NCBI GenBank assembly: GCA_947034885.2
Contig: OX344756.2
Coordinates: forward strand, 16,984,098-17,048,097
Direction: 5' to 3'
DNA: 64,000 nucleotides
DNA from: Thuidium tamariscinum
Lineage: Eukaryota > Streptophyta > Bryopsida > Hypnales > Thuidiaceae
Shown here piece by piece: positions 44,289 to 64,000 of the stretch. The notes under the pieces are model-generated. The model saw nothing but the letters and a program-made list of their open reading frames with translations. It did not search any database and had not been told where the DNA came from. The position numbers were made by a program, and so were the translations under genes. Position 1 is the first letter of the stretch. Every line of letters starts with the position of its first letter.

Positions 44289-45823
44289 TTGTTTGTCAGA
44301 TTCTTCTCCTTTGACTACATTATTTGTAAATTACTTTCTTCCTTGGCACTAGGGATAACTTTGAACCAATCAAGGTGAAACCAAAAAGATAAAAGCAAAA
44401 TACGTATACAATTACACCTAGAACAACAATGTATACATGTGAGTGTACATGTCTTGTATTTCTTCAAGTTCTATACTTGTAATGTTTATAGAGAGGGTGA
44501 AGACATTGTCATGTCCAATACACTTGTCAAAATTAATTGAATTCACAAAATGCACAATATGTCAAAATTATTTTTACACAATCATGTTCATATGAAATGG
44601 TAGTATGAAATATCATAGAAGAATGTAACAATAGTACAAAATATTAAAGTTCTCAGGCCATTGATCCGAAGTTGAGTCAGTGTTGTAATTGGGATATTGA
44701 AACATCTGTAGGGTGCAATACCACACTAATATTGAAACATTACAAAACTTATCGGCATTACATGATAATTGCTATTCAAATGTTAGGTTGGTGTTGTATC
44801 AATTTTGAATGTTTCAACATTGTCAATTAGATACTGGACAATGTTGTTCTATTTTTGCTTACTTCATTGTTGAAACAATGCCCCATTCAATGCTATCCAA
44901 TACTTTCCTATTCATTCATTCAAACAATACCAAATCAATAGTAGTGATACAATCTTATATAGGCTACATATCAATGTAACATCATCCACTAATTGGATAT
45001 TACAATTTTAGTTATTAAACTTCTAGGACAATGCTACATTCAATTTTTAAACAAGCTTTGAAATGGTCTTGACAGGCAAGCTTTCAACACTTTCACACTC
45101 CTTCAAAAGTTGGTATCTACTACTATTAGTAATCTCTTTGAATTTTAGTAAGATTTAAAAAGTCGCCTTACTTAAATCCATAAGTATCAAGGCACAAAAG
45201 GTTCACTTGTAATTGGTAAATTTCAAAATTGTAGAAGAATTCACATTGATTAAAGAAAATGATTGCAATAATCCTAATAGTTTTTCAGAAAAATAATTCT
45301 TCTTCCAACTCCTAGAATAGATTGTACAAGTGCAATGTGCATCATACAATCAATGAATCTTATCTACAATGCCAAGAGAACATCTAATTTTTCTTGGCAC
45401 TTCTAATCTTTTGCAAGTTCCTAGTCTCAAGCAAACTAAATGAAAAGGTTCATATACACTGAAATAGACTGTGAATTGAGGAATTTCAAAGGTCAAATTG
45501 AAGGTCATCAACTGCAATCTTATCAACTAAGCAAATTCTCCTCATGCATGATGATTCTTCAACCAATTTCGCTTCAACTATCTTCATTTGCGATCTTGCA
45601 GTTCCAGGGGATTAAATGTCTTCCCCAACAATCCAACATTGCTACTTCCAACTAAAACAAATACAAAACTAGATTTTGTTAGTAGTGACCAAAAGAATTT
45701 GACATATAAGCATAAATTTCACTTGCAAAACCAAAAATTAAAGTAGAAAATTTAATAAACTAAAAAATTCAATAAAAAATGTGCCATGCAAATACTTACC
45801 GCACATAAGAAGAATCCCCCTTA
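44289..45823. other. Spacer, no gene seen; may hold the distal end of the Plavaka-like element
   Basis: No open frame with a recognisable domain. I looked for an inverted end matching the region after 54,490 and could not define one. Confidence 0.3.
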
Positions 45824-47899
45824 CTCTTTTGTGATTTCAACAACACCATGCAAACCATAGCACTCCCCAATCATAGTACGTGCAATTGCACCATACAGTG
45901 CATCACTCCCAAAAGGATCTCTGAAGCCAAATTCATTTGTTTGAATCCTCCATTTGTTACCTTCAAACAAAATACAAATTAAATAACAAAAAATTAGTAT
46001 AAGTTGAAAATTTAGATCTTCACAAACCTCCAACTGATACATGAAAAATTATATATTTTATGAATTGTCACAAAGTAGAGCATATAACAAATGATTATTA
46101 CTAATTTGAATAAGTTATGAATACACTAATTTGAGTAAGTTATAATTACATTGATTTGAGTATGTTATGAATACTTTCCAAAGGAAATCTAGGTTAAGTC
46201 TTAGGAACTAGTGGCTACAAACTCCAAATTCAAACTGACCTTCCTGATGGTTTTCAAGCTTATCAAACCACTGTTGGAATTCTTGATGGGAAGAATTCCG
46301 CTTTGGCTTGGGACAACCTAACTTCCTGTGAGCTCTAATTTGGCATCTCGGATCAAGCTGCTTCGACGATCCCTCACATTCTTATTGACCATTTTTGATA
46401 GGCCACCATTTGGTCCTAGAGGTCCCTAAGCTTTCAAGAACTCAAGGGTGATTGCAAGAAACACTTGTTCTATTTGTTGAGTTTTACTACAATACTCGTG
46501 ACTTTTTCTAGAGTACTTTAAAATTAGAAAATTAATTTGGAAAAAATTTGAAAAATATGAATAATGTATACACCTCTAAGATGAAGGTTTTTGCTGAAGG
46601 AAATTGATAGAAAAATTCTCTAAGTAGGAGAACTTAAAAAGCGCCAAACCTCAAGAAAATACATACTTTCATGTTTTAATTTGGGAAAATTAATAAAAAT
46701 AAGTAAATAAAAAAAATAAAAAGTGGCCATTTGCAACAACTCTATGGAGATGGTCATTCATCAAAAAAATCACTAAAATAATACTTTATATGTTTCAAAA
46801 TACAACCAGAAGGAAGCTTACTTTGTGGACTTCCACACAACATAAAAATAACTTTTTTCAAAATCCCTCACATGGAGAGCTGTGAGTCTACTAGAAGACC
46901 ATCTCATCCAAATTTCATCTCAAAATCATTAAAAAAAGGTACTCTTTAGTGACTGAAAACCCCTAAACTGCTAAGTGTGACTGTGACATTCATTCACTAG
47001 TACTATTTTGAAATCAAACTATTTTTGAAAATTATGAAAAAATTATAGAATGTGTATGGTACCTATGAGTATCTTCCCTATAAATCTTGAGTAATTTCGA
47101 GCCAAAACATAGAAGTTATGGCCAAAAAACAAATCAGCACACTAGGTGTGACAGAAAATAGGACAAGTGTTTCTTGCAATTGCCCTCAACCTTTGCCAAA
47201 TCATTCTCCTTGATGTCAAAAGAAATCATCATGGCCTCAAAGAGAATCTCATTAGTGGGATACATTATTGAATTTGAGAATCTCCTGAGAAGGAGTTTGC
47301 TCACAACCTCAGTTTGCTTGATCTGAAAAGACAATGCAAACAATGCAAAGTAACTGTTCAACATGGCTATTCAATGTAATTGCATAGTAAAGGCACAAAC
47401 AATTAGGTAACTTAGCATTTGGAAAGAAGCCAAAACAACATTTTACAACAAAAAATCAAAAGTAAAACATAGAAAAGGATTATACCTTCACTTGTGTAGG
47501 GTTGCAACATGGCATAATGTCTTTACATTTCTCCATGGCAATTTCCAATGCCCTTGTGGTAGAGAGTAGTTGCTGTCGAAGCAACTCATTGTCCTTTATG
47601 AGTTTTGCATAGTGCCTTTTCTGGACCGCATCCATAGGAACACTAAAGTATTCCTTACCTTGTTGATGGTTGGGAGGAATAGTAGATGTCCTTTTTTGTC
47701 TTTCAATCTGTCCAACGAGGGTACTACTAATTCTGGTGACATGAGCTTCTACTCCTCTATTCAAGCTTTGCATAGCAAATCCCCTACTGGACTGGCTCCC
47801 ATGAGATGGAGTGATGTTCAAATGACGTCCTCTATGCACTAGAGTTTTAAACTGTGCCTTTAAGGCAGCCAGTCGTTTAACCTCTTGTTGGCTAGGCAT
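45824..47899 (-). CDS. Unidentified multi-exon gene, probably transposon-borne
   Basis: I do not recognise the protein. Four exon-like blocks follow one another on the minus strand. 47899-47483 starts MPSQQEVKRL, has a leucine- and glutamine-rich likely coiled coil (LIKDNELLRQQLL) and ends at a GTATAA donor. About 47334-47190 follows a TTTTCAG acceptor and contains MYPTNEILFEAMM. About 46397-46210 is rich in charged residues (LGCPKPKRNSSHQEFQQWF). 45968-45824 holds FGFRDPFGSDALYGAI and ends ITKE-stop. The third block has its own stop, so it may not join the fourth. The intron between blocks 2 and 3 holds a 740-bp mobile element. The gene diverges from the Plavaka-like transposase, so it may be that element's second gene. 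Exon order and the true start are uncertain. Confidence 0.4.
46446..47185. mobile_element. Element with GGGTGATTGCAAGAAACA ends, copy 3, inside an intron
   Basis: The left end GGGTGATTGCAAGAAACACT is mirrored by the right end AGTGTTTCTTGCAATTGCCC; the matching ends extend about 27 bp. TCAA flanks both sides (46442-46445 and 47186-47189), in line with the 4-bp duplications of its relatives at 24.5 and 41.7 kb. Confidence 0.65.
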
Positions 47900-48312
47900 T
47901 GAAATTTTCAGAGTCACTAGTATTCAGGTCCTCCGTATACTCCAGGTCCTACACAAACATAGTTTTATGAGCTTGCTCAGAATTAGAGTTATGGACTTCA
48001 TTCTTAAAATCTTCACGCATGAATGCTTAACATTGCTTAATATTGAGATATCATAAACACTACAAAAATAATTTTTAGGTGTTGCAAATCAATTAAACAC
48101 AAAACTGAAGCCATGTGCAACTCTCTCTCATTCAAGAAAAAAGGTTTGCAAATTGCAACAAAAATGAAGATTACTGCAGCGCATGTCTCATGGAGAATGC
48201 AACTTGAACAGAACAGAATTGTCACGCAATTTGAACACAAGCCATCACACAATAAAACTGTTATTCAACTTGAACACAATTTTAATGCATCTTGAATGCA
48301 ACTTGAATGACT

Positions 48313-48509: not shown

Positions 48510-50328
48510 AATACCAAAAAAATTCAGTGTGTTTTATTGTCGTAATTGCATTCCTCAAACATCTTGATATTGCCCCGACACCCGTCATTCTCGCAATCAA
48601 TCGCCTTAGTCAACTAAGCTCTCAATCTCAAGAATGTTGCGCCTCTCGCAAACACACCGCACCTCTCGCCTTGTCCTAACCATAGCTCTCACGGACGCCT
48701 TCGACATTCCCTGGTGTCATGCCACCGCTCAAAACTTTGTCACGAAAGCATGTTGGAATTTCTAATGGAAGAGGCTAATGAGATCTTGAAAACTGTGAAA
48801 TGGCTGTGATGAACACACCTGCTAAAAGAGAGAGAAAGCACCGTCCCACTTTCCATAAGCGAAACAAGTGAAGAAAGGTAAGTTTCCATCCATCTTACAA
48901 ATAAAGTTTTCATTCATTTTGATTGATGTAATAGGTACGGGCAACAATTTAACAAGTTAGTGGTGTAACATGATGACTCTGAATTTCCAAAATCAATCTC
49001 AGATTAGAAAGTTGGACGGAAACAACAGCCTCGCCTTCGACATTTGAGCTTCAATGTTGTAGCGATTGTAGGTGCGTAAGGGGCCAAGATATGGCGTGAG
49101 GGGCCGGGATCCAAGTGCGTGCAGTGCTTGCTGCTCACTTTCTGGACGGAGGCTTGACTCAATTAGTTTCGAGGTGCAGGGGCTTGGTCCGTGAGCTCTA
49201 CAAACACCGCCGTGTTCTGTCCAAGTGTTTGAGTTCTCTTAGTAATCGAGTTAGTGGTACTGGAGGTTTGCTACCGACTGGCTAGATCTTGAAAGTCTTA
49301 TGCTTCTTCTGACTTGCGATGCACAAACTTGATCGTACTATGTTTCAATGTTTCTTGATCGTCTTAAGATTGTCTTAGGAGGTGTCTGCATTGTTGCCCA
49401 ATGGCTCGTTATCTTAGAGCCAAGAAATGTTGATTTGAATTCCAATGGAATTCTGTTATGGACGACTCTTAAGCCTTAAGGACATGGACACACACAACGG
49501 AGTTTTCAGAGTTTACTCGCAGTTTGTTTGAGACAAATTACTTAGGTGGGAGCCATTGATGCTCATTGCAGATTGTAAGTACATGGGACAATCACAATTA
49601 TGGACTGAACGATGCAGGCAAAGAGTATGATGGGGAAGATGCCAATCAGCAGGTGATGCTCGACTTTCTAAACGAAGCTCCTGATAGCTCGATGTAAGGC
49701 GCAAGTCCCCTGTTTGCTTGCATCGAGGTATTCAGGTTTGAGGGCCCATTGAATCCGTCTGAGAAAGTGGGTGGGCAAGGGTTATGTATTGAGTCAGATT
49801 TTCTGGTTAGGATTTTGTGTTGGGATTGTCGTATTTTGTTCATTTGCAAATTAGATCATGCTATGAGACTTTCTCTAGTTGGCATTGGCGGAGTCCATCT
49901 GGTATATGATTCTTCACTCTCCTAGGAGACTTATTCTATGCTTGCAAGAGTATATTCTAGTGATTGGTTTTTTTACCAGTATTAGTTTGATCCTAATTTC
50001 CTTACCTTACTATGTTGAGATAAGGCATACTTTGATTATGATCTCCTTACCTTATTATTTTCAGATTGTTTTATTCCAATGTTTTTTCTCAATGTGTAGC
50101 TTTTGGTCTATGCAGATATTACCTAGACTATTGCTCGATAACTTGGAGCCACTGGTGAACCTTGGTAAATACTACTAATTTTAATTGATTTGGGAGCATA
50201 TGATTCTTGAATATATCAGATAAGATTTGATGTTGATTCACGTATTTCTTTCTACAAGTGGTGGACACGGAGAAGCATTGTAATTATAAGATCCTTTTTT
50301 CTTTTCTTGAAAGAGAGCAGTTGGTGTT
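48510..50328. other. Divergent intergenic region between two transposon-like genes
   Basis: GC content rises at 49,050-49,300 (GGCGTGAGGGGCCGGGATCC). Short open frames have no domain. It could hold divergent promoters and first exons for the minus-strand gene and the plus-strand transposase, but none could be defined. Confidence 0.3.
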
Positions 50329-53300
50329 GTGATAAGATTGCTAGGGTTTGGACTAAAGACGAATCTGGATTGTCCTTATTGTGGGACTAAAAGATTTTCA
50401 AGCTCTGCAGGACTATCCATCCATGTAAAAAGATGCCGTAGTTTGTCTAGAACTACAAATCGACCTAAATTTGGTGAAACTCACAATGTCCCACCAAGTA
50501 CTAGTAGTGCACCTCCACTACCAATGGCAATCCAAATTGAAGCTGATGAGCCTTGCAGTTCTAGACAACCATTTCCAGATTCTCGAATATTATTCCCAAC
50601 TCATAAGGAGACTCAAGAAGAGCTTTTTTAAGTAGCCAATTTGTTGAAGACTATATTCACATGGAGATGGGTGACTTAACAACAACAATGGCTAGCTCTT
50701 TTGATTCGACATTTCACCTTATTGACTTCATGCGGAGTTGCAAAACCAAACAAGGATTGTCAACCATTAACATGAATGCACTATTAAACTTTCTCTTTGA
50801 TTCACGGTTTAATATCAATGAAGTCATTGTGAGAAGTGCTCACGATGTTGATAAATGGGAACAAAACCTGTACAATTCAAAAGATGTAAGTTTTTTACTC
50901 TTAAATTTGGTTTGATTTTTTATTGTTTCAAGTGTTTGAACATATAATTTCAATTCATATTTATATTTTTTCTTTCACAAAATCATTTTAAAGATCTCAC
51001 AAAGATGGTTGTTGAAATTGGCTAGGGTTGGCAACAACAGATTCTCTCAGAATTTGGTGAACTAGAGGTTGTGCTACATCACAGGGACTCTATCCAAGCT
51101 CTTGCATCTCTATTTGGTGCACCTAATAATGCTGAAGGTTTTAAGCTAGCTCCTACTACCGTACTAAACAATGATGGAGAGCAGATATTTTCAACACCAC
51201 ACACATGTGAATGCATTAGATGTTTTTTCAGCAGTTTAGAAGACTGCGAGTTCCCAACTGTGGGAACGCTGTCGGGAACTGCCACATCTGCGATCTGACG
51301 TGGTTGAGAGACTTCCACGTCAGATAATAATATTAAAAAAATTTAAAAAATAATTTTTTAAGAAAAAAATTATTTTTTAATTTTTTAATTATATTTTATT
51401 CTGACTGTTCACAGCCTTGGGAACAGGCCTGAAACAGTCTTCTAATCTCCCAAAAAACATCTAATGGTGGGAAGCTATGCAGGTAGTGTATTTAACCTTC
51501 AAATATAAGTGGTTCCCATAGCTTGTTGTAGGTTACTCTCTCTTGTGTGCATGCTACAAGAGATGCAAGTATTGGAGTAAATGGCAGCTTTAATTACTTG
51601 TCAATCATGAAGTTATGCCATTTAAGTAGAGAATGTCAGGGTTGGCTTTTTTCACTATATTTTCACAAATTGTAATGTTTAAGGACTAATTACTTGTTAA
51701 ATATATACATACTTGAATTGTAATTTATAAGTCAAAAATAATCTCAACAATTTTAGAATCATGCGGTTGATGGATTTGCAGAAGCATGTGGGGTGTGAAG
51801 GAAGTGTGGTGGCTCCTCTCATGTTTTACAGTGACCAGACAAGCCTTTCCAATAATATGAGAGTGACTGGGTATCCATTAGTGATGTCCATAGCAAACAT
51901 CTTGTGCGAAAAACGACAAATAGAGGATGGACATGTTCTACTAGCAACATTGCCAATAGTTGCTTCTAATGCAAGTTCGTTTATTCACTGAAATATCCCC
52001 ATAGCATGGAATCCTAAAATTGAAGTTAGTTGATACAACAATTTTAGATATTGACCTAATTTTATCTCATAACATGTAGGCAATCGAGAGTTATTACATG
52101 TTAGAAGATTGAAGCTTTTGCACAAATGCTTGAAGATTGTACCAGCACCACTTAAAGCTACAAGTTATAGGTAACTTCTTTCAGGGATGGGACCTTGCGA
52201 ACAATCCCAAAACTAGCTAAATTTTGCTTTGTTTCTACTTGATTTTTTCATGTCCGTGTAAATTCAAAAAAATCTTCCAAATATGAACATTTGGCTAATT
52301 GTTGTGAACATGTTTTGGGATTGTTGACCTTGCACGAAAGTTCAATCAATGTAGCAAGAAAGTAGTATTGGGCATGTTTCTAGTTTGGACTCTAATAGTT
52401 TTGTGGTAATTTGGATATGTTCTAGGGGGCTTACATTGATTGATCCATTGGGCATACCACAATTTGTTTATCCATTATTGTATGCATATATTTGCGACCA
52501 TCCTGAAGGTTGCAAGGTGAGCTTTCATTTTATTCACAATGTGCATTTCTATTTGCAATTTCAAAAATTACAATAGTTTATAAATAGACATGGACATGTA
52601 TTTTAAATTTAAATTTAGATTTATTTTCTTACTATGTATCTTGTATGCTGGTTACGTCAACATATGATACAAATGTTTGCAAACTTCCATGCAGCTTATG
52701 CCTCTACCCTAAAGAAAACCTCAACAATGTGAACAAAACATTTGAAGCTTGAACTGAGCTAAACATGAAGGAGATTTATAGGAATATGCAGGGTTTATCA
52801 AAACATGAATCAGATCCCATTTCAAAGAGGTGGTCCTTGCATGCTGTAGAGGTAAGAATATCCCTTAAATTATTGAAACATAAGTTGGATGCTTTCAAAT
52901 TGACATTATTAAGAGCTCTAGCTTATAAATCCTTGAGTAGTTTGGAATATTAGATAGTATAGAATAAAATATAAAATCACACATAGACAACCATTTATGC
53001 AGTATTGTTATCTGTATATACTAGTGCTCTTTATGGGGCTTCAACAGTGGAGAAACAGCTATGGGAAATCCCTATAAAGCATTACATGTGGACATTTTAC
53101 ACCAAAGTGATTTGGGGATCTTTAAGTTGTTGTTTGGCATCATTAGAGATATTGCAGCTGAAAGCCCTCGTGCACACATTCTACATGAGCTTGACAATCG
53201 ACTTATGCGACTTAAAGCAAGAGCCCGCTTTGCACATTTTTGCATTGATTTCCAGGCAATGAGAAGGGGGGTTATTTCTATTCACAAGCAAACTTTGTTG

Positions 53301-54486
53301 CCTTTGAACATATATCCATGATGCAGGTAATTTGTTTACATGATGTATTTGCTTACATAGCTACTTTATTTGAATCTGGCATTTATCGTGAGCTTGTAAT
53401 AATGTATCCCTAATTTGAATGTGTATAGGTCATTATTTTTTGCATGGTTGGCTTATACAAGGATCATATCATCCAAGCCATGGTATACTTTTTAGAATGG
53501 TATGTATGTGCTTGCAGAAGCCCTTCCCATACTATAAAAAGCTTGCAGACCATGCAGGATTTGATGACAAGGTAATTTATAAACCTGGTCGTTACTTAGA
53601 TCTTGTTCAAATTTACAATGACTTGAGATTTATTTCCATGCTTATATTGTTCATAAGTTATGCTATTTGACAACAAAATCAATGACTTGGTTTATATTTT
53701 TACTTTAGAAATTTATACATAAGATCTCATGCAACTTTTTGTTGGTGTGTTTGTTCATAGTAGTATTGGCCTTCAAGAGGGCTTTGTCAGAATGGCAAAA
53801 ATCAAGTTTTAATACTGTCAAGATTCATGCCATTTTGCTTCATCAATCCAAAGGTGAGGATTGCCTTGGGAATATTCTACTAACATGTTTGAGCAAATGC
53901 ACATTGCACTTATGAAGAGAGCATACAGGGCAAGTAATAGAAGAGAGGCAAATGCACAGATTGTCAAACACAACCGTAGACTTGAAGCTCTAAGGATTGC
54001 CAAGCAAGAAATTGATTGTGTAGAGAATGCAAAAACAAAGAAGAAAACAACTCTTCATAAGGTAATTTCTATAGAGTTTAATGCTTCTTAGTTCATTTAT
54101 ATCATTTTTGCTTCTTTGCAAAGTTTTTGTGTTTAAAGATATGCAATGCTTTTTCCTTGTGTGGTGCACATATGATTTTATATTGGGAATTGATCTATTG
54201 TCATTTTTTTGCAATGTAACTCATGTCATTCTAGGCAATAGAAATGGGCATGAATGTTATTGGTGGAGTAGCCTTTAACATCCACAAATCATGGTTAAGA
54301 AGAGATATTATTTCCTTATGCTGCACTCCGGCTTCAAGCATTGATGATACACGCAAGAGAAGATATTCAATGGTGGTTGTACCTATAGTTGTACGAAATT
54401 TGGTGAAAGAACAACTAGAAGTCTGCAAGCATTTATATGAGGCTTTGCATGCATATGAAGTGGCACATGATGTTTGCATTGGAGAG
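50329..54486 (+). pseudogene. Plavaka/KDZ-type transposase, intron-rich and broken
   Basis: DNA transposase related to the Plavaka branch of the CACTA-like (CMC) group. Features in family order: an N-terminal C2H2 finger (CPYCGTKRFSSSAGLSIHVK, about 50,370); a YRDP-like block LHHRDSIQALASLFGAP; CEWWEAMQ; the catalytic-region signature APLMFYSDQTSLSNN (about 51,806); PEGCK; LHVDILHQSDLGIFK (about 53,090); AFEHISMMQ; and STNMFEQMHIALMKRAYRAS before 54,060. Supported exons include 50631-50885, 51026-51482 (MITE inside), 51782-about 51990, about 52082-52170, 52426-52516 and 54235-54486, with GT-AG borders. Damage: frame changes near 50,630, 53,070, 53,268 and 53,860, a TGA at 52750-52752, and the MITE. 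The first residue is not defined. No complete protein can be read. Confidence 0.8.
51214..51466. repeat. MITE, CATTAGA...TCTAATG family, copy 5, inside a transposase exon
   Basis: The left end CATTAGATGTTTTTT, leading to AGAAGACTG at 51245, is mirrored by 51435-51466 (CAGTCTTCTAATCTCCC, then AAAAAACATCTAATG). Interior landmarks are ACGTGGTTGAGAGACTTCCA and an AT-rich core. Removing exactly 51214-51466 joins TGTGAATG to GTGGGAAGC and restores the reading CEWWEAMQ. Confidence 0.85.
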
Positions 54487-54623
54487 GTAATTACAATGTT
54501 ACTAAAGTACACTATATTGTGAGTTTTGTATATGTAAACAAGTGCTTGGAGTTACTATTTACTATAACACAATACTTTAATATACCAATTGAGTTTTGTT
54601 TTTTGTTTTTTTGTTTTTACTTA

Positions 54624-54735
54624 GGGTATGTTCTCACTTGATGTTAGAGGTGTTGTTTGGAAGGTGAATTTGTTCCTGAATTCATTCTTAAGACCCTCTA
54701 TAACAACACTTTTAACACCAAGTGGAAACAAACCC
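54624..54735. mobile_element. Small Tourist-like MITE, 112 bp
   Basis: TTA flanks both sides (54621-54623, 54736-54738). The ends GGGTATGTTCTCACTTGATG and CACCAAGTGGAAACAAACCC pair with few mismatches, and the arms continue (AGAGGTGTTG with CAACACTTTTA). GGG ends and a TTA target fit PIF/Harbinger. Confidence 0.7.
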
Positions 54736-54967
54736 TTAGGCTTTTATCAAAGTGAATTAAGAAATTTATTAAGTAGCTTCAATTAATAAAGTAATTCTTT
54801 TGAACCAATTCAAAATCAAATTAATAGATCTTCATTATTTTTGGAATGAATTGAACCAATTGAAGTAAGTAAATTTGATACCTAAAGCTACTTTAATAAG
54901 TTGCATTGTTACTTAACTTAATCAACATATCTACAGGTGTTTAGCGTGGTTAAGACAGTGGCAATTA

Positions 54968-55000
54968 CACTATAAGAAATAGGTGTTTTTGGGAACGTTA
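54968..55000 (+). repeat. CACTA terminal repeat (left)
   Basis: It begins CACTATAAGAAATAGGTG and then TTTTTGGGAACG. The matching inverted end is not in the window. Confidence 0.75.
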
Positions 55001-55129
55001 TAAAAACCAAGGAAATACGTCACTGTTGACAAGATTTCGATCAACGTTGATGTCCCCTAAAATCCATTATAAAAAAAAAGCAAAAAACGTGCCAAAATTT
55101 TTTTGGACGCGTGAAAATGTGGCTTGTTT

Positions 55130-55560
55130 TTTTTTGACGTCACAGTGAGCATGGTCTTCAGAACTTTGTAGAAGGCTCCATGTGGAGGGGTTCAGCCGTC
55201 CACATAAGCTCTTTTTGTGGCGGGCAGTGCCACATTGTAACTTTTTTCATCCAAGCCCTTGCAGACCGGGGCAATGACGTGGACTTCTTGAAAATCTGAG
55301 GTGGAATCTTAAAAAAGCTGATGTGGACTTCTTGTAAAATCTGAGATGGATTCTTAAAAATGATGACGTGGACTTCTTGAAATTTCTGACATGGACTTCT
55401 TGAAAATCTGACGTGGACGAGCCACGTCAGCTTTTCCTTCAGTGTTGTATGCCTGTTGGTATAGCTATGTCTTGTTTTTCTTGACATTTTTAATGACGCG
55501 TTTGTGTTTTACTTGATGTCATTTGTGACAGATGCTTGTTCACAAGAACGACAACCGAAA
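55130..55560. repeat. CACTA subterminal repeats
   Basis: Units of about 40-55 bp recur: ATGACGTGGACTTCTTGAAA, then TGATGTGGACTTCTTG, GATGACGTGGACTTCTTG, GACATGGACTTCTTGAAAAT and TGACGTGG/CCACGTCA. Such arrays bind the element's own DNA-binding protein in En/Spm; that role here is inference. The minus-strand open frame 55158-55487 reads through these repeats and is not a gene. Confidence 0.65.
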
Positions 55561-56433
55561 CTCAGAATGACGTACAAGTGATTTTGCTGTGCACTATAAT
55601 GCGTCGACGAGAATGTCACAATTGACATCCAATAGAGCAATGTCAATTATCTGAAGCCATAGAGCGTGTTCCTGTGAACGTTCTAGAAAACATGCAGTAC
55701 AAGCATTTGTCCTCAGCGACGTCTTCACAATGGTGTACAGTAGAGAAGCTTTGTTTGTGAAGACGTCTTAAAGCGTTACCACCAATGTTTCAAGTTAACA
55801 AGGTATGTCAACACTTTCCTTCCTCTCTCATGTGCCTACTCATCATTTGAGAAATCATACAACATTGATGAATCTAAAGAAATTAGTCCAAGTATAGCTC
55901 CTGCACATGAAGGGATAAAGCTCTGCAATTGCTCATGCACACAATAGAAGACCCTCACAATGCAATTTTGACCATGGCGTTTTGCAAGAGAAATGGAAAG
56001 CAAAGGATATGTAATTGCCAAGTACAAGGTCTTCTCCTATACAATATGTTCCAATGGAAGTACTAAGTTTTTTGGTAGACCTGCTCTCCCTTTAGGTAGG
56101 CCACTTGCTGCATGAACAGTAGCATGCAGAACTTCCTCATATTTGACTACTGAGAAAGAGTTCCACTTGTGTTTCGTGTGAATGAAGCCCATACAGTACT
56201 CGTCTCAGTAAACATCAAACAAAACTCATATGCCTGACTCCCTTGACATCCAAGTGGACATGGTGGACACCGTATTACTTCTTCCGACTAGCGTCGTTTT
56301 TCTTTGAGCTTCTGCCCTGTAGATTCCGTAGACAAGCATTGAACATTAGCCTTTGAATAAGGTAAACCATTCGAACTCTCTTTGCATGCATAAGAGTGAA
56401 ATGAGACTTTTAAGCTACAATGACGTTGAAATT

Positions 56434-59400
56434 TCATGGCAATGACAGTAAAATGAACATTAGGAAGAAGGAAGTCACCTTTGATGCAGCTCCTGCTGGT
56501 TTTGGGAGACCAACTGGCCTTGCCTTCGATGCAGACTTTGCTACCTTCACCGCCTGTGGTGCCTTGCCGGCACGTCGAGGCCTTCCGGAGGACTCACTGG
56601 GTGCGTCTACCTCTTCCTGTACAAAATGAGAAAAACAAAGGAACACAATTCATTGTCACATATACTAGCATGAACAATACGGAATTGGACTTCAATTCTA
56701 TAGTAGAAAAAGGATAGCATGCATTTATAGAGAAAGAAGGGTTCAAATCCCTTCGACACTAAAGACATTATTAGAAGAAATTAGTTATATGACAAACACC
56801 GAACTCAGAGCATGTCTTCTCTGATGCATCCACCTGTCCCTGAAGACGTCCATGAGGACGTTCTTCTTGACAGGGTACAACGTCCTCTACAACGAGTTCC
56901 ATTGACATTGTACACCTTCCTTGCTCTTTTAGGTAGACTCAGAGCGTTCGCGCAATGTGAGGTCAAGAAATCTTGGACATACCTCGGCTTCTTGTACCTG
57001 CACTGCTATAGGCAAGCTGCCCTGTTCTTCGTCAACATTACCTTCACGCACAGCTACGACGCCCTCGCTGCTTTGTTTTCCTCCGTCATTTGCTCCAATG
57101 GAGTTAGCATCCCCGCCTTCGTCATCTCCCTCATTCCCTGCAGCATTGGCTGACGCCTCTCCTGATTTTGTGACTCCCGCTTCAGTATCGGTTGTCTTGT
57201 CCTCCGTGACATCACCATGCACGTGTTGTGCGTCCTCTTCGACATCAAGATGAACAGGTTCCACGTTCATAGGAGCAGCATTAATGGGAGGCTGAACCGG
57301 AGTTGGCTCTGGCACCACTTCCTGGACTGCCGCTGCCGCTGTGGTGTCTTTCTTGGAGTTTCCGTGCTTCCCACCTCGACTCTCAAGAATTTGGTGCATC
57401 ATCTCTTCCAACCGCTTCTGGGACGACGTGACATTCTCCCCCAGAATTGTGACGCTCTTCTCCAACTCCGACACACGTGCCCGCACTTCGTCCATGTCTT
57501 TCTTGTGATCACGTCGGGACTTCTTCTTCTCTTCCTGCCTCCGCTTGAACTCCTTCTGGACTTCATCATCCACCTCAGCATCAAAGGGTGCACGGCCCTT
57601 CAACATAGTCTACATCACCCACCATGCATTGCAAAGAAAGAATGAAGTGAGTATCATCTTCTCGACTGCATGAAGAGGAATCGAGCGACTTCCTATCCTT
57701 CGCCGCATGAGGAAGTACAAGTCTTACACGTTCATTTTGACGTCATAGAAGATGAAGACTGTCTTATTTGATGTCAGAGAAGACACATGACGTCCTCTTT
57801 GACGTCACTGGAAACACAACGAGTCCTCTTAGACGTGCTGTATAACAAGAAAGGTGACACGTTCAAAGCCTATGCACACTTTACATTCCAAAAGAGATTT
57901 AGGGCGCTTACCAAGCGTGACACAACCTCCCTCTCAATGGCCTTCATTTGTGCTGTTGTTGACCCCTTACCCTTTGAAATTGAACGCATTTGTGCCGATT
58001 TCTCTTGAGCTGCTTCAGTGGCCCGTATGGCTTGAAGTTCCTTCCAATGTGTAGGGCTCACATCTTCCGGTCTAGGTGAGTTCGAGTCTATTAGACTATT
58101 GATTTTGTAACGCAGCACAATCAGTGACTTTGTTATAATTGGCCCCAGGTAACTTTGACTCACTCGGTTGGAAGCCCCGCACATCTGCCAATCTGGAAGC
58201 CATGACACTACATTCAGTACGAAACACAACTGAGAAGCAGCCTTGCTTCTCCGTAACAAGGTTATATTTTCGAGAGACTGAATGATGGAAGTGACAATAC
58301 ATCACAGATTGATGGAAGGGGCAAGATGTAATGAAAGCAGCTACAGTACCGTTTCCCAACAGTCCTCTAGTGTCACCTGTATTGAATGTAGACTGCCTAA
58401 GAGGACATCACACTAAACATGGCCTCGTCAATAGTGTTGTTTTCAACGACGTCAAAGATGACAGGAGGAGTGGTAAGGAAGTGTGAAGACCGACAACACA
58501 AATGCTCTGGAAACCAGACAGCACGAATTCAGCATAGACCTGTGTAAATTCTCTTGAATAGACGCCGTCTTTCAGAGCGTGGCTGTCCTTCCCAACCCAC
58601 AGTGGGATCAAGATCTTTGGCATATTTCTTGACATCGCTCCTGAAGGCATCCTTCATGGATCCAAACGGCCACCCGTGGATGTCCAATTCGATGGGTTTC
58701 CTCATGAAACAGCTCGACGATGGTTTGTCATCTTTTTGCACCTGCAAGGCTTCGATAGCGTCATCAGTATCGCAATCAGACTCTTGATTCTCGTCATTGT
58801 TGTCTCTAGAGTGTGTGTCGTATCCCCGGCTGCAGAACAGCATTCACATTTCACGTGTTAGTACAGTCAATGCAATGTGGCATGTCCCCACCAACATTGA
58901 CACACAAGAACTCCCACCCCGACCACGGCCCTTCTCTTTGCGGTGTTTCAGAAGCTGATTCCTAAATAATGGAACCCTATGCCGCATTCCGCCAAAGACT
59001 GCGTCTTCTGGGACATCAGCTTTGACGCGTCCCATGTTTTTCTGTACATCTGTATAGACCACCATGAGCCCTGAAGGGAATCAAATCGCCTAGAACGCAC
59101 GGTACAAGCTCGGATGTACGTGCACATGGCACATGGAACTCATGAGATACCGCCAATGACGGAGAAAGATGTTTCGAGCTTCCATACAATCCCCCACCTC
59201 ATGTCAACGTAGACGTCAACATTGACGCATACTAATTACAGGTGACATCAACCAAGACGTGAGATTCTAGCCTAAGTCAATTTTGACGTCAAACCAGACG
59301 GAACACTGTTTACCCAGACATCAACGCTAACAACCTGTCTTCGCCAATGAAACACGTAGCACTCATTGAGAGAAGAGTGGACCACTATTCACCTCCAAGA

Positions 59401-60786
59401 CTGCTCCTTCAATCCACCGCTCTCCTTGCCTTCCTCCATTGCTGTGTCTTCGTCTTCAACGTCATCTGAAACGTCCACCACTGCATTCTTCTTCCTGGGG
59501 GGGGCGACCTCATGCGCAGGGGACTTCCGCTTCGGTTGTTTGGAGAAGTTTGGGTCCTCTCTGGCTTTAGACCTCTACTCTCCAGCTGCACGCATGTGCC
59601 TTCCTGGGGGGATGGCTTGTTTTTCCGCCGGGACATTGTCGCGACTCGGCAACTGCTTCCGCTTTGTCGGCTTTTCACGTGGAACCTTGCCGCGGGCCAT
59701 GCCTGCCTCTCCGCCTCTCCAGTGCACAAAGAACTCTCCCTGTTGCTGCATCACAAGGCACACGGACGTTACAGAAATTTGGATGGTCCCAAGTTTAGGC
59801 CTTCAACACCAGTTAAGAGGTGCACAACAATGTTCACGCTGGCAACGACGGAGACAAGCGTGGCATGCAATGGATGTTAAGCCTGCGCCGCTGTCCCCAT
59901 GAGAACTACCAATTCTCGAACAACCCAGCATGCATCCCTAAACGCATGCCAATTCTGATGTCCTTGACGTCCTCTCGAAACCCTGGAGAGCTCCCTATCC
60001 TTGACGTCCTCCCGAAACCCTCGAGAGCTCCCCGTCCTCCACTGTCCTCGGGATATGCTTTGGAATGCCCAATTGACCACAACGCGGAGGTCCCCAAATT
60101 GGAAAAGCAGATTACAGGAGAGGAACTTACGGGATGACGGCGAATTCCTCAAGCAATTCCGCCCCGACGTTGCGCATCGAATTCAAAATAGTCGGTGCTG
60201 CAATGCCTGGTGAGGGAGACAAAATGGGAACACCCACAACACGTCCACCGTGACACAGAATGGGAGAAGAGGCCCCTTCATTGAAGACGGCCGGAGTGGC
60301 CAATACCCGGCTGCCCCTTTACAGATTTATACTCGTGCATGACCCTAATACCGCGGTGTGCAGCGAGGGACACGTAGGGCTTTTCGGCGGCGGCATTTCA
60401 AAATGCGAATACCATGCTCTTGCAATGGCATTAACCACCTCGATTACAAGTGCAATTAATAAAAATACCAACCACAACAAGAAATTAAATTCCAATTTCA
60501 CCTGCTGGGGAGGTGGGTTCGGACCAGCTCCGTCAAATTCAGTAGCCGTGGACGCACTGGGCACAGCTGCTTGGTCCACCAATCTTGAAGTCCTCGGAGC
60601 ATTTCCCTCACGCATTGTGTTAGACGAAGGCTTCATCGCGCTCTTCATCGGGGAACGTTGCGAGACAAGATCCGTGAGAGCCAACGCTGCCTCCGAGTCC
60701 TCCACGTTCGTCACAGGTGCCTCTTCTAAGTTCTCTGCAAAACGGACAATCCGCCAACGCTTCGGGACACCAGAGAGGATTGCCAT
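56434..60786 (-). CDS. TNP1/Transposase_24-like accessory gene of the CACTA element
   Basis: Second gene of En/Spm-type elements, expected to bind element DNA in the nucleus. Coding blocks in minus-strand order: 60786-60502 (starts MAILSGVPKRWRIVRF, donor CAG|GTGAAA); about 59750-59415 (MARGKVPREKPTKRK, then the basic KQPKRKSPAH and acidic DDVEDEDTAMEE); about 58790-58555 (IHGWPFGSMKDAFRSDVKKY); about 58070-57915 (SPTHWKELQAIR, QEKSAQMRSISKGKGSTTAQ); 57606-56929 (charged coiled coil FKRRQEEKKKSRRDHKKDMD, then an acidic tail); and 56620-56480 (basic, with GRPRR). The HWKEL...S.Q.R...G order is that of Pfam Transposase_24. An in-frame TAG lies at 59575-59577 within the second block. Exon joins are not resolved and there may be further short exons, for example 60206-60131. 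Confidence 0.55.
59955..60035. repeat. Two tandem GACGTCCTC units
   Basis: TTGACGTCCTCTCGAAACCC and TTGACGTCCTCCCGAAACCC start two direct copies of a unit of about 37 bp, inside the span of the minus-strand gene. Confidence 0.75.
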
Positions 60787-61773
60787 ATCGGTAAGATCTC
60801 GGCCGCAAATGAGTACTATGCTTCTGCCTCACAAAGAATGATTACCCTAAACCCTAATCTGCTATAGAAGTCTTCTTAAAAAATGATGTGACTTCCTGTA
60901 TAAGCGTGCGACACGTCGGATTTCTTTTTCAGGAGCATGTCTCAAAACAGAGCTGTGTTCTTCTTGACGTCAAACATGACGTCTAGAAAAACATGAGGTC
61001 GTCTTCATTCCTATGTACAAGCCACATGCCCTGCCTATGTCAGCGTCAATTACACAGATCCGTAGTGATTGTCGGAAAATAAGTGGTGAAAAGGACAACA
61101 TGGGTGGCCATTTTTCAAAGGCTAACGGCATTGTATCCCCTTCTCAACTTAGTCATAGACATTGTTCAGGCCATTAATTACAATACTATATTGGTCATAG
61201 GAAATCTTTTCGTCCACTTCAGAGAAGACACTTCAGTGTACAAAGAAATTTAACAAGGATTTGCTGTGAGTCTATGACTTGCCCAGTCCTTCTCTTCTTT
61301 GTGATGCTCATCTTGACATCTTACTGGACGTCATGCGTTGACAACAACATTTTTGTGTACGTCAATTTGGATGTCACATGTGATAAGACCATGTTCCTCT
61401 GCACATCTGTGGCAAGGTGCACAGTAGAACTGAATGGCACTTTTGGCATCTTCAAGAATTGCTATGATATGATTTTTCTCATGATCTTCTTAGTCCGACA
61501 CCCCAATCATATCATTCTCTTCTAGGCATTAATTTTTTTTTAAAACCTCTTCATGTAGGGAAGTGATGGTACGACACTAAAGTGTTCTCTGCTTCGGCTA
61601 GTGCTTCTTTGCCACATGCTCTGTCACCAATGTCCACCTTCTAAATTATGAAATCTCTCTTCAGATTTATCATGAACATGATGGGCTTCTTCTTCAGTCA
61701 TCATACAGTACTTTTCTCCAGTTAATGAAGACCTTTTAGCGGATGGCATGCTACTTGCACATGCAAGAGAAGG

Positions 61774-63573
61774 ATGGCAACGCAATCGAATCCAAACTTA
61801 CAGCGACGTCGCAATACAATCCGCATTACTGAAGATGGTCGTACGCTTCGCCACATTCCTGTAGGGGACTTGATATTGCATACAGAGCTACGAGTGGCAA
61901 CCGAAAAGAATGTTCAGTCTTTCCGATGTCCATGCCGAGATTGCAAAGGTGGACGTCGGAAATCCATCCAAGTCATACGGCAACACCATGCGGCAGTGGG
62001 TAGGGACCCATTTCTCAAAAAATCGCTCATTGGCGGGGACCCCATTGAGGGGTACCCTGCAGGTGGAATTTGGGTTGAAGATGTCACATTTGACGACGAC
62101 AACGTTGTCATAGACGTCCACGAAGACATCAGATCCAACAACGCAGACAATGCTGCAGCAGAGGATTTCGACATGGAAGACCCTCAATACAACAGCCTTG
62201 TACTAGATGAGTTCCATGAAGTTCAACGTCAAGTTATGGAGGCTCTAGATCGAGGGGACGCTTTGCATGAAGAAGCAGAGGCTGCAAGGGAGGCAGTTGA
62301 CCAAGATGATGGGGCCACTGATACCTTAGAGGATCTGGATGATTTATACACCCAAGCAACCACCCCCGTATATGCAGGATCATCTACAAGCATTGTATCA
62401 GCAACAATCATAATCATGAATATGTGCACAGTGTTCCATGTGAACAACAAATTCAGCAATGAATTATTCCGATTCTTATCCACCGATTTACTACCGCAAG
62501 GCAATAAATTGCCACATACCCATTACGAGGCACGGAAGAGCATAAGACGATTGGGCTTGCATTATAACAATGTGCATGCATACCCAAATGGTTGTGTTCT
62601 TTTTGAAGATGATTATGGAGGGTGTGATACTTGCCCTAAGTGTAACACCTCTCGATGGTTGGACGGGAGCAACCGTATTCCTTCGAAGGTCATTCGTCAC
62701 TTTCCCCTCATTCCCAGGTTGAAACGAATGTGGAGGTCGACGGAGATCGCACGCATGCTCACAGGGTACACTAAGCACGTCAGCTCAGACGGCGTGATGC
62801 GCTCAGTGGTGGACAGCCTAGCATGGAAGCACATTGACACTGATGTCGCGTTTGACAACTTCGGAGCTGAACCTCGTAACATGCGGCTTGCATTAGCTTT
62901 AGATGGTGTCAACCCATTCAAGCTGAACAATACGAACTGGTCAACTTGGCCCGTGCTGATCTTAATATACAATTTGGAGCCATGGTTTGTGACGAAGAAA
63001 TTTTTCATTTCATTGTGCATCTTGATTTCCGGGAAGCACTCCCCTACCTCTAGTGGTCTTAATGTCTTCATTCGCCTTCTTTTGAAGGAGTTGCAGGAAC
63101 TATGGCATGGAGTTCCGGCACTTGATTTTTCACGACTAGAAGGGAGTCGTACATTCACATTACATGCCATTCTCATGTGGACCATCTCAGATTTTCCAGC
63201 TTATGGACTCATCTCCGGACTTTGCACCAAGGGCTATAAAGGCTGCCTTCCCTGTGGACCTGACACTGATGCAAGAATGGCAAAGACAGGTGACGTTCTT
63301 CCGAATAGAAGAACAAAGGGATCCAAGATTGTATATGGTGGCATTCGTCGGTACTTGCCTAGGCACCACCCGTACCGTAGGAACTTGAGATTCAACGGTA
63401 AAGTGGAGCACCGTTCCAAGCCCAGAATAATGACAGGTCAAGATGTTATCCGCTACGCAGCTTGGCGGCAATCATACTTGGATCTAGGAGGGAGGGAGAA
63501 TGGACCAGATGACCCTGTGCACATCACGGGAGTGAAAAGACGATGTGCTTTGTATGATCTGTCGTACTGGGAG
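61774..63573 (+). CDS. TNP2 transposase of the CACTA element, first exon(s), 3' end outside
   Basis: DDE-type transposase (Pfam Transposase_21). The ATG at 61774 begins MATQSNPN. A cysteine motif, RCPCRDC at residues 51-57, resembles the transposase-associated N-terminal domain. An acidic linker follows (residues about 105-200), then CDTCPKCNTSRW (Cys284, 287, 290), LALALDGVNPF (Asp377, the probable first catalytic Asp), STWPVLILIYNLEPW, WTISDFPAYG and the Cys491/Cys494 pair in GCLPCGPD. The frame stays open to a stop at 63631, but family similarity ends at LYDLSYWE, exactly at a GAG|GTGAGG donor (63573/63574), so an intron probably begins there and the rest lies beyond 64,000. The second and third acidic residues are not in view. 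No lesion is seen in this part. Confidence 0.88.
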
Positions 63574-64000
63574 GTGAGGACTCTACAATACTACACTAGA
63601 AAGATTGCTGTCTCGTTCTTCTGTTCTTATTGACATGCTGTGGGACAAGTGGAGAAACTGTCAATGTTCAAGGCGTCAAGTCAGATGTCCTCTTCAACGT
63701 CATAGTGAACGTCATTGAAAACAATGTGTGTCATTTTTGACATACGTAGGTACAGTACAGAACATGGTACTGTAATGTCGGTGTAGTCAGACTTGGTCCT
63801 ATATGTCACAAACGGCCTTTTTAGGCAAGTCTACAGACGTGCACAGTAGGCGTATATTGGGAGCCTGAAGAAATACACACTCAAACTATAAAACAAGTAC
63901 AGTCCATCATTGAAGTTCAATCTCCAGAAGTCTTGCTAGTACAAGTCATACCTTGCATGTAGGAATAAGTGCCATGACAAGAAGTGCATTTTTTCATTTG
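63574..64000 (+). other. Probable intron start and GACGTC-rich CACTA interior
   Basis: It begins GTGAGGACTC. It contains CAACGTCATAGTGAACGTCA and further GACGT motifs. No coding similarity is seen up to the window edge. Confidence 0.5.

Follow-up and report, generated by a model that had tools for sequence, protein, structure and literature searches.

The window, i.e. the whole stretch of 64,000 nt of Thuidium tamariscinum DNA that was analyzed (C8:16984098-17048097, from a searched genome of 363 Mb and 19 contigs, named C1, C2 and so on), harbors the remains of a Plavaka element between positions 45404 and 54967. These limits give the extent of homology to a sister copy at C2:3106408-3115313, which aligned to the window in five collinear pieces with 79-97% identity (BLASTN). 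Inverted CA or CATC ends belonging to the window family itself were sought in the window, the C2 copy and the loci L040, L041 and L042, where nothing convincing was found; the right end of the window element lies beyond a CACTA insertion. That an intron-split Plavaka transposase (PF18759) is encoded in the region 50329..54486, as proposed in a sequence-only reading of this DNA, was confirmed. The peptides quoted there were all recovered in the given order, on the plus strand and in separate frames. The interval itself was too narrow, as the last exon begins only at 54937, and homology to C2 extends to 45404, some 5 kb beyond the left side of the transposase.

Nine exon pieces of the window were subjected to a Pfam scan. 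One piece (51731-51985) scored above the Plavaka cut-off (30.7 versus 26.3 bits, E 2.4e-7), a second (51026-51217) stayed below it (17.0 bits, E 0.0036) and the remaining seven gave no Plavaka match; for the finger piece, only sub-threshold C2H2 matches were obtained. When a moss Plavaka probe was aligned with splicing to positions 50000-55100 of the window, the score was 1320, compared to 58-103 for eight shuffled-protein controls. In tblastn searches against the window, a hypothetical protein of the moss Ceratodon purpureus (M758_UG213700, P0003) aligned in eight collinear pieces between 50685 and 54082 (best E 1.5e-39) and a protein of the charophyte Klebsormidium nitens (KFL_005040060, P0005) in six pieces (best E 2.5e-27); both proteins carry PF18759. 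A protein of the fungus Lactarius (P0004) gave two weak pieces (E 9.2e-5 and 3.8e-4). The PDB search with the transposase profile returned a single match (E 0.068), which was disregarded. The attribute KDZ-like, also part of the sequence-only reading, has to be dropped: Pfam scans of the window exon pieces, the TNP2 ORF region and the proteins of the relatives gave no KDZ (Kyakuja/Dileera/Zisupton) match, and the accessible part of Kojima (2025, PMC12730594) corrects the placement of Plavaka near KDZ.

Spliced alignment resolved the transposase gene into about eleven exons on the plus strand, close to the 'ten or so' counted before. The first (50353..50885) encodes the C2H2 finger and has a broken frame near 50630. 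The second, which leads to WWEAMQ (51026..51482), contains a MITE at 51214..51462 with the inverted ends CATTAGATGTTTTTT / AAAAAACATCTAATG that is missing in C2. The first catalytic Asp (YSDQTSL) is located in the exon 51782..51974, supported by Pfam and spliced alignment, and is followed by a small exon at 52089..52170 (spliced alignment) and an exon at 52426..52516, in which CDHPEG contains the likely second Asp according to spliced and protein alignments. The exon with the CxxC motif (52651..52851) has lost its acceptor (TG, AG in C2) and harbors an in-frame TGA at 52750-52752. In the exon HVDILHQ...EHISMMQ (53025..53326) a 5-bp difference to C2 shifts the frame, and in the exon with HxxxH and the catalytic Glu (NMFEQMHI, 53761..54061) a 7-bp difference breaks the HxxxH motif, which is intact in C2. 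The exons 53429..53572 and 54235..54486 were defined by comparison with C2 and by spliced alignment. Only the start of the last exon is preserved (54937..54967), where it is cut off at a CACTA-like end; the end at 54968 thereby removes most of this exon. The C2 copy has kept it, ending in RYFVNKWKF, much like the Ceratodon protein, which ends in RFFVNKWKF.

With its frameshifts, the stop codon, the lost acceptor, the truncated last exon and the insertions, including one of about 740 bp in the left half, all defined against C2, the window copy is dead, and in this respect the term 'fossil' was appropriate. The alignment of the C2 copy showed one frame break and no stop. Substitutions between the two copies amounted to 76 of 2295 positions in exons (3.3%), 76 of 2124 in introns (3.6%) and 182 of 3484 in the left half (5.2%), with transitions predominating. 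As exons and introns diverged alike, there is no sign of selection on the protein since the copies parted. This bears on the possibility that a host gene was domesticated from a transposase, to which we assign only a marginal chance. The window family does consist of two close copies in the genome search and has many introns, as a host gene might, but the window copy carries numerous disabling changes and its exons diverge as fast as its introns; for this copy, domestication was ruled out on these grounds. The two copies go back to one origin, after which the window copy decayed and was struck by the MITE, the 740-bp insertion and a CACTA element.

A probable CACTA element with the end CACTATAAGAAA occupies positions 54968..64000 and sits in the last Plavaka exon. 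This end and the TNP2 ORF at 61729-63624 (Transposase_21, PF02992, E 1.3e-59) would belong to one CACTA element. With a TNP2 ORF 7 kb to the right and CACTA elements being common in the genome (627 first-look candidates, 150 of them scored), the transposase exons might be taken for an ordinary plant CACTA (TNP2) or hAT remnant. None of the nine exon pieces matched Transposase_21 or hAT models in Pfam, though, and the matches obtained were to Plavaka, in the Pfam scan as well as in tblastn with Plavaka proteins, which rules out such a remnant and leaves this reading a practically negligible chance. Neither a lack of Plavaka profile matches nor best matches to hAT or CACTA TNP2 proteins was observed.

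Contamination of the assembly by fungal DNA would also account for a transposase that is mostly reported from fungi. However, the window lies within a 25.7-Mb contig, and the MITE in its second exon has at least 40 matches elsewhere in the genome with 81-95% identity on nine contigs (best 40 of 2903 candidates). In addition, the genome contains a moss LEAFY gene, of which one exon is identical in 100 of 106 residues to PDB entry 4bhk_A ('FLORICAULA/LEAFY HOMOLOG 1', E 6.6e-71), presumably from Physcomitrium, and more distant from 2vy1_A ('PROTEIN LEAFY', E 2.3e-50), which we take to be from Arabidopsis. At the variable position of the motif KPKMR[D/H]YVHCY the exon encodes Asp, in contrast to His in 2vy1; Asp is reportedly the moss type. 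Contig C19, in which the rbcL frame is intact, resembles a plastid genome. The location in plant DNA was therefore borne out and fungal contamination is barely conceivable. The LEAFY gene is located on C4, and its SAM domain has five further matches, at C9:9824638, C1:35710485, C8:9874880, C1:42521344 and C2:21540582, with E values of 6e-9 to 1.5e-4. Terpene synthase exon matches numbered 11 and were all on C2.

In an alignment of the family C (see below), L041, Ceratodon and Lactarius proteins, the invariant columns comprised D214 (SDQT), C331/C334, H553/H557 and E577, giving the order D...C2C...H3H...E. The second Asp (CDHPEG) is a likely assignment, being Asn in Lactarius and located in a stretch that is absent from P0003. 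As far as the source is accessible, Kojima (2025, PMC12730594) describes C2C and H3-4H motifs preceding the final Glu in the group that includes Plavaka. With core motifs as in this group, cut-and-paste transposition by a DDE transposase is to be expected, with a catalytic chemistry that is putative for the moss protein.

A genome-wide profile search with PF18759 gave 28 matches, all 28 above the cut-off, which merged to 22 loci and included family C. The family was first seen as four copies (L003-L006) with 99.7-99.97% identity over 3279 bp and a fifth (L002) with 98%. A search with its last 300 bp detected 20 matches, five at 98-100% and fifteen at 71-86% identity. A comparison of three copies that covered most of the element gave 99.1-99.7% identity in the aligned pieces, and two copies cut out whole measured 9040 and 8967 bp. 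The element ends are CATCTGGATT...AATCCAGATG. Perfect 2-bp target duplications flank all four copies for which both flanks were read, namely AT on C2, TT at C1:5.69 Mb, GG at C1:15.13 Mb and TG on C9; the left end of the fifth copy, on C8, fell outside the stretch fetched. CATC..GATG ends together with a 2-bp duplication, the combination known from PlavakaB, were found in family C only. At C1:15125616-15142000 (L041, L050, L065) a family C element has inserted into the last exon of a different Plavaka, L041. When the L041 flanks were joined with GG present once, an open exon ending in YFFVNKWKF was restored, and the aligned exons of L041 contain no stop. Therefore, this family has moved recently, and the close copies with their perfect duplications show that 'fossil' does not apply to the lineage. 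The duplications and the clean insertion into L041 support a cut-and-paste mechanism, in which the transposase would bind the CATC...GATG ends. The exon after the catalytic Glu had no clean reading in the three full-length family C copies aligned, which may reflect either a splice that went unnoticed or a genuine defect.

Remnants of a second gene, divergently oriented to the transposase, were detected on the minus strand of the window at 45489..47923 by spliced alignment and tblastn (E 3.9e-10). The pieces lie at about 47923-47483, 47370-47165, 46425-46219, 45920-45833 and 45611-45489, the outermost two being placed by eye, and the insertion of about 740 bp (46446..47184, ends GGGTGATTGCAAGAA / TTCTTGCAATTGCCC), which is missing in C2, splits the gene. 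Spliced alignment to the corresponding family C gene scored 142 for the window and 184 for C2, compared to 34-58 for controls that used six shuffled proteins or, in two runs, the wrong strand. In family C the gene lies on the minus strand in the left half of the element, between both ends with their duplications. When one exon of this gene (117 aa) was searched against the genome at E<=0.01, 32 matches were obtained, corresponding to 28 places. At 12 of the 22 Plavaka loci such a place was found within 15 kb, where about 0.05 are expected by chance, and at each of these 12 loci, five family C copies and seven divergent ones, the partner lies upstream on the opposite strand at a distance of 3.6-7.6 kb. 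Three of the matches at the seven divergent loci are weak (E 5e-4 to 0.003). The nesting of two elements near C1:15.13 Mb additionally produces two cross-pairings. The ten loci with no second-gene match include the window, where the 740-bp insertion interrupts the exon used as query. No Pfam family scored above the cut-off in eight scanned pieces of the second protein, and no PDB match was obtained at E<=1.

The second gene might instead be an independent mobile gene that frequently lands close to Plavaka and forms no part of the transposon. This would fit the 16 of 28 second-gene places with no Plavaka match within 15 kb and the ten Plavaka loci lacking a partner. It is at odds with the constant order and orientation in all 12 pairs, 3.6-7.6 kb apart, and with the location between the ends and duplications of family C, and for four of the 16 unpaired places a diverged family C end is no more than 10 kb away; we regard a separate gene as quite improbable. 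The complete unit most likely consists of two genes, an intron-rich transposase with a zinc finger on one strand and an upstream, divergently transcribed protein of no recognised family. In CACTA elements, TnpA serves as a helper protein. By analogy, and given the linkage of the two genes, the second protein may assist the transposase.

Nine introns recur in the moss families, at probe residues (and phases) 133/0, 196/0, 286/2, 317/0, 384/0, 482/0, 529/2, 633/0 and 718/0. Each is present in at least three families, some shifted by a few nt near frame breaks, and no examined family holds all nine exactly: L040 lacks those at 196, 286, 317 and 718, L041 those at 286 and 482, and family C the one at 133. 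On the probe, seven of the eight family C introns are no more than 3 nt away from a C2 intron, and with random placement four or more coincidences did not occur in any of 20,000 draws. These shared positions imply that many of the introns were already in place before the moss families diverged. At the protein level the window and C2 copies are 91% identical, the Ceratodon protein is 39-57% and the Klebsormidium protein 33-41% identical to the moss families, and two metagenome proteins are 59% identical to an L041 exon. In a protein search, the Ceratodon relative matched family C with 38% identity over 97% (E 3.4e-147). A tree with Lactarius as the one fungal sequence, from which P0006 (E 2.4e-5, no Plavaka domain) was left out, supported the branches joining the window with C2 (100/100) and L040 with Ceratodon (95/100). 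Five of its eight inner branches lack firm support and the bootstrap had not converged; Klebsormidium forms a long branch that is not firmly placed.

The sequence-only reading had offered an old horizontal transfer or an undersampled plant clade as explanations. The latter gained support from the relatives with PF18759 in Ceratodon and Klebsormidium, whereas positive evidence for transfer was not obtained, with one fungal sequence compared. An ancient transfer to plants, from fungi or another group, with introns gained afterwards, would agree with the mainly fungal reports of Plavaka, with the ability of such transposons to cross lineages and with the loose placement of Klebsormidium. It would need to predate the split of the moss families, which are 34-53% identical among themselves (the window/C2 pair apart) and 20-25% identical to the Lactarius protein, and which have introns in common; moreover, a charophyte relative exists. 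We consider it unlikely. Two protein database searches scored only the 7996 candidates sharing most words, so that missing fungal matches mean little. Taken together, the shared introns and the Klebsormidium relative are best fitted by an old streptophyte clade, which most likely was inherited mainly by descent.

Overall, it appears highly probable that the window contains a decayed moss copy of a two-gene Plavaka DNA transposon from an old streptophyte clade passed on mainly by descent. For a wider version, there is about an even chance: streptophyte Plavaka would be older than land plants, combine an intron-rich transposase with a required divergent second protein, be still mobile in mosses and be expected across bryophytes and charophytes. 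A recently mobile two-gene moss branch with a charophyte relative would push the likely age of Plavaka in plants to early streptophytes. The second protein would bring in a new family of accessory proteins for testing, and moss genetics gains an endogenous transposon candidate whose ends and target duplications are defined.

Among known systems, CACTA/EnSpm elements belong to the same broad transposase clade and likewise have a two-gene layout. Their CACTA ends, 3-bp duplications and transposase family, PF02992, set them apart; PF02992 is absent from the nine exon pieces of the window element. The nearest named relatives are the moss and charophyte proteins P0003 and P0005, known here as database proteins alone; PF18759 is thus already recorded for Ceratodon and Klebsormidium. 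Plavaka is reported mainly from fungi, and a Plavaka of a land plant was not named in the accessible literature searched. Beyond fungi, EnSpm-Plavaka of the green alga Auxenochlorella, called potentially active (PMC12636532), and Plavaka repeats of the animal relative Amoebidium (PMC11244446) were compared by description only, from the accessible parts of these papers. In its accessible part, Kojima (2025, PMC12730594) groups Plavaka with CACTA/Mirage/Chapaev/Transib, correcting the author's own earlier view, and gives CATCA..TGATG ends and duplications of 2 or 3 bp for fungal PlavakaB. Judged by that description, family C resembles PlavakaB in its transposase family, in the C2C and H3-4H motifs preceding the final Glu, in CATC..GATG ends and in 2-bp duplications, but has T instead of A as the fifth terminal base. 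The moss proteins are only 20-25% identical to the one fungal protein compared, and no TET/JBP gene was seen in the moss element pieces scanned with Pfam, which differs from fungal PlavakaB. Unlike PlavakaB, the moss elements carry about nine introns that recur between families, and a second gene in divergent orientation. What seems to be new lies in the structure, comprising these introns and the second gene as well as the ends, the target duplications and the recent movement.
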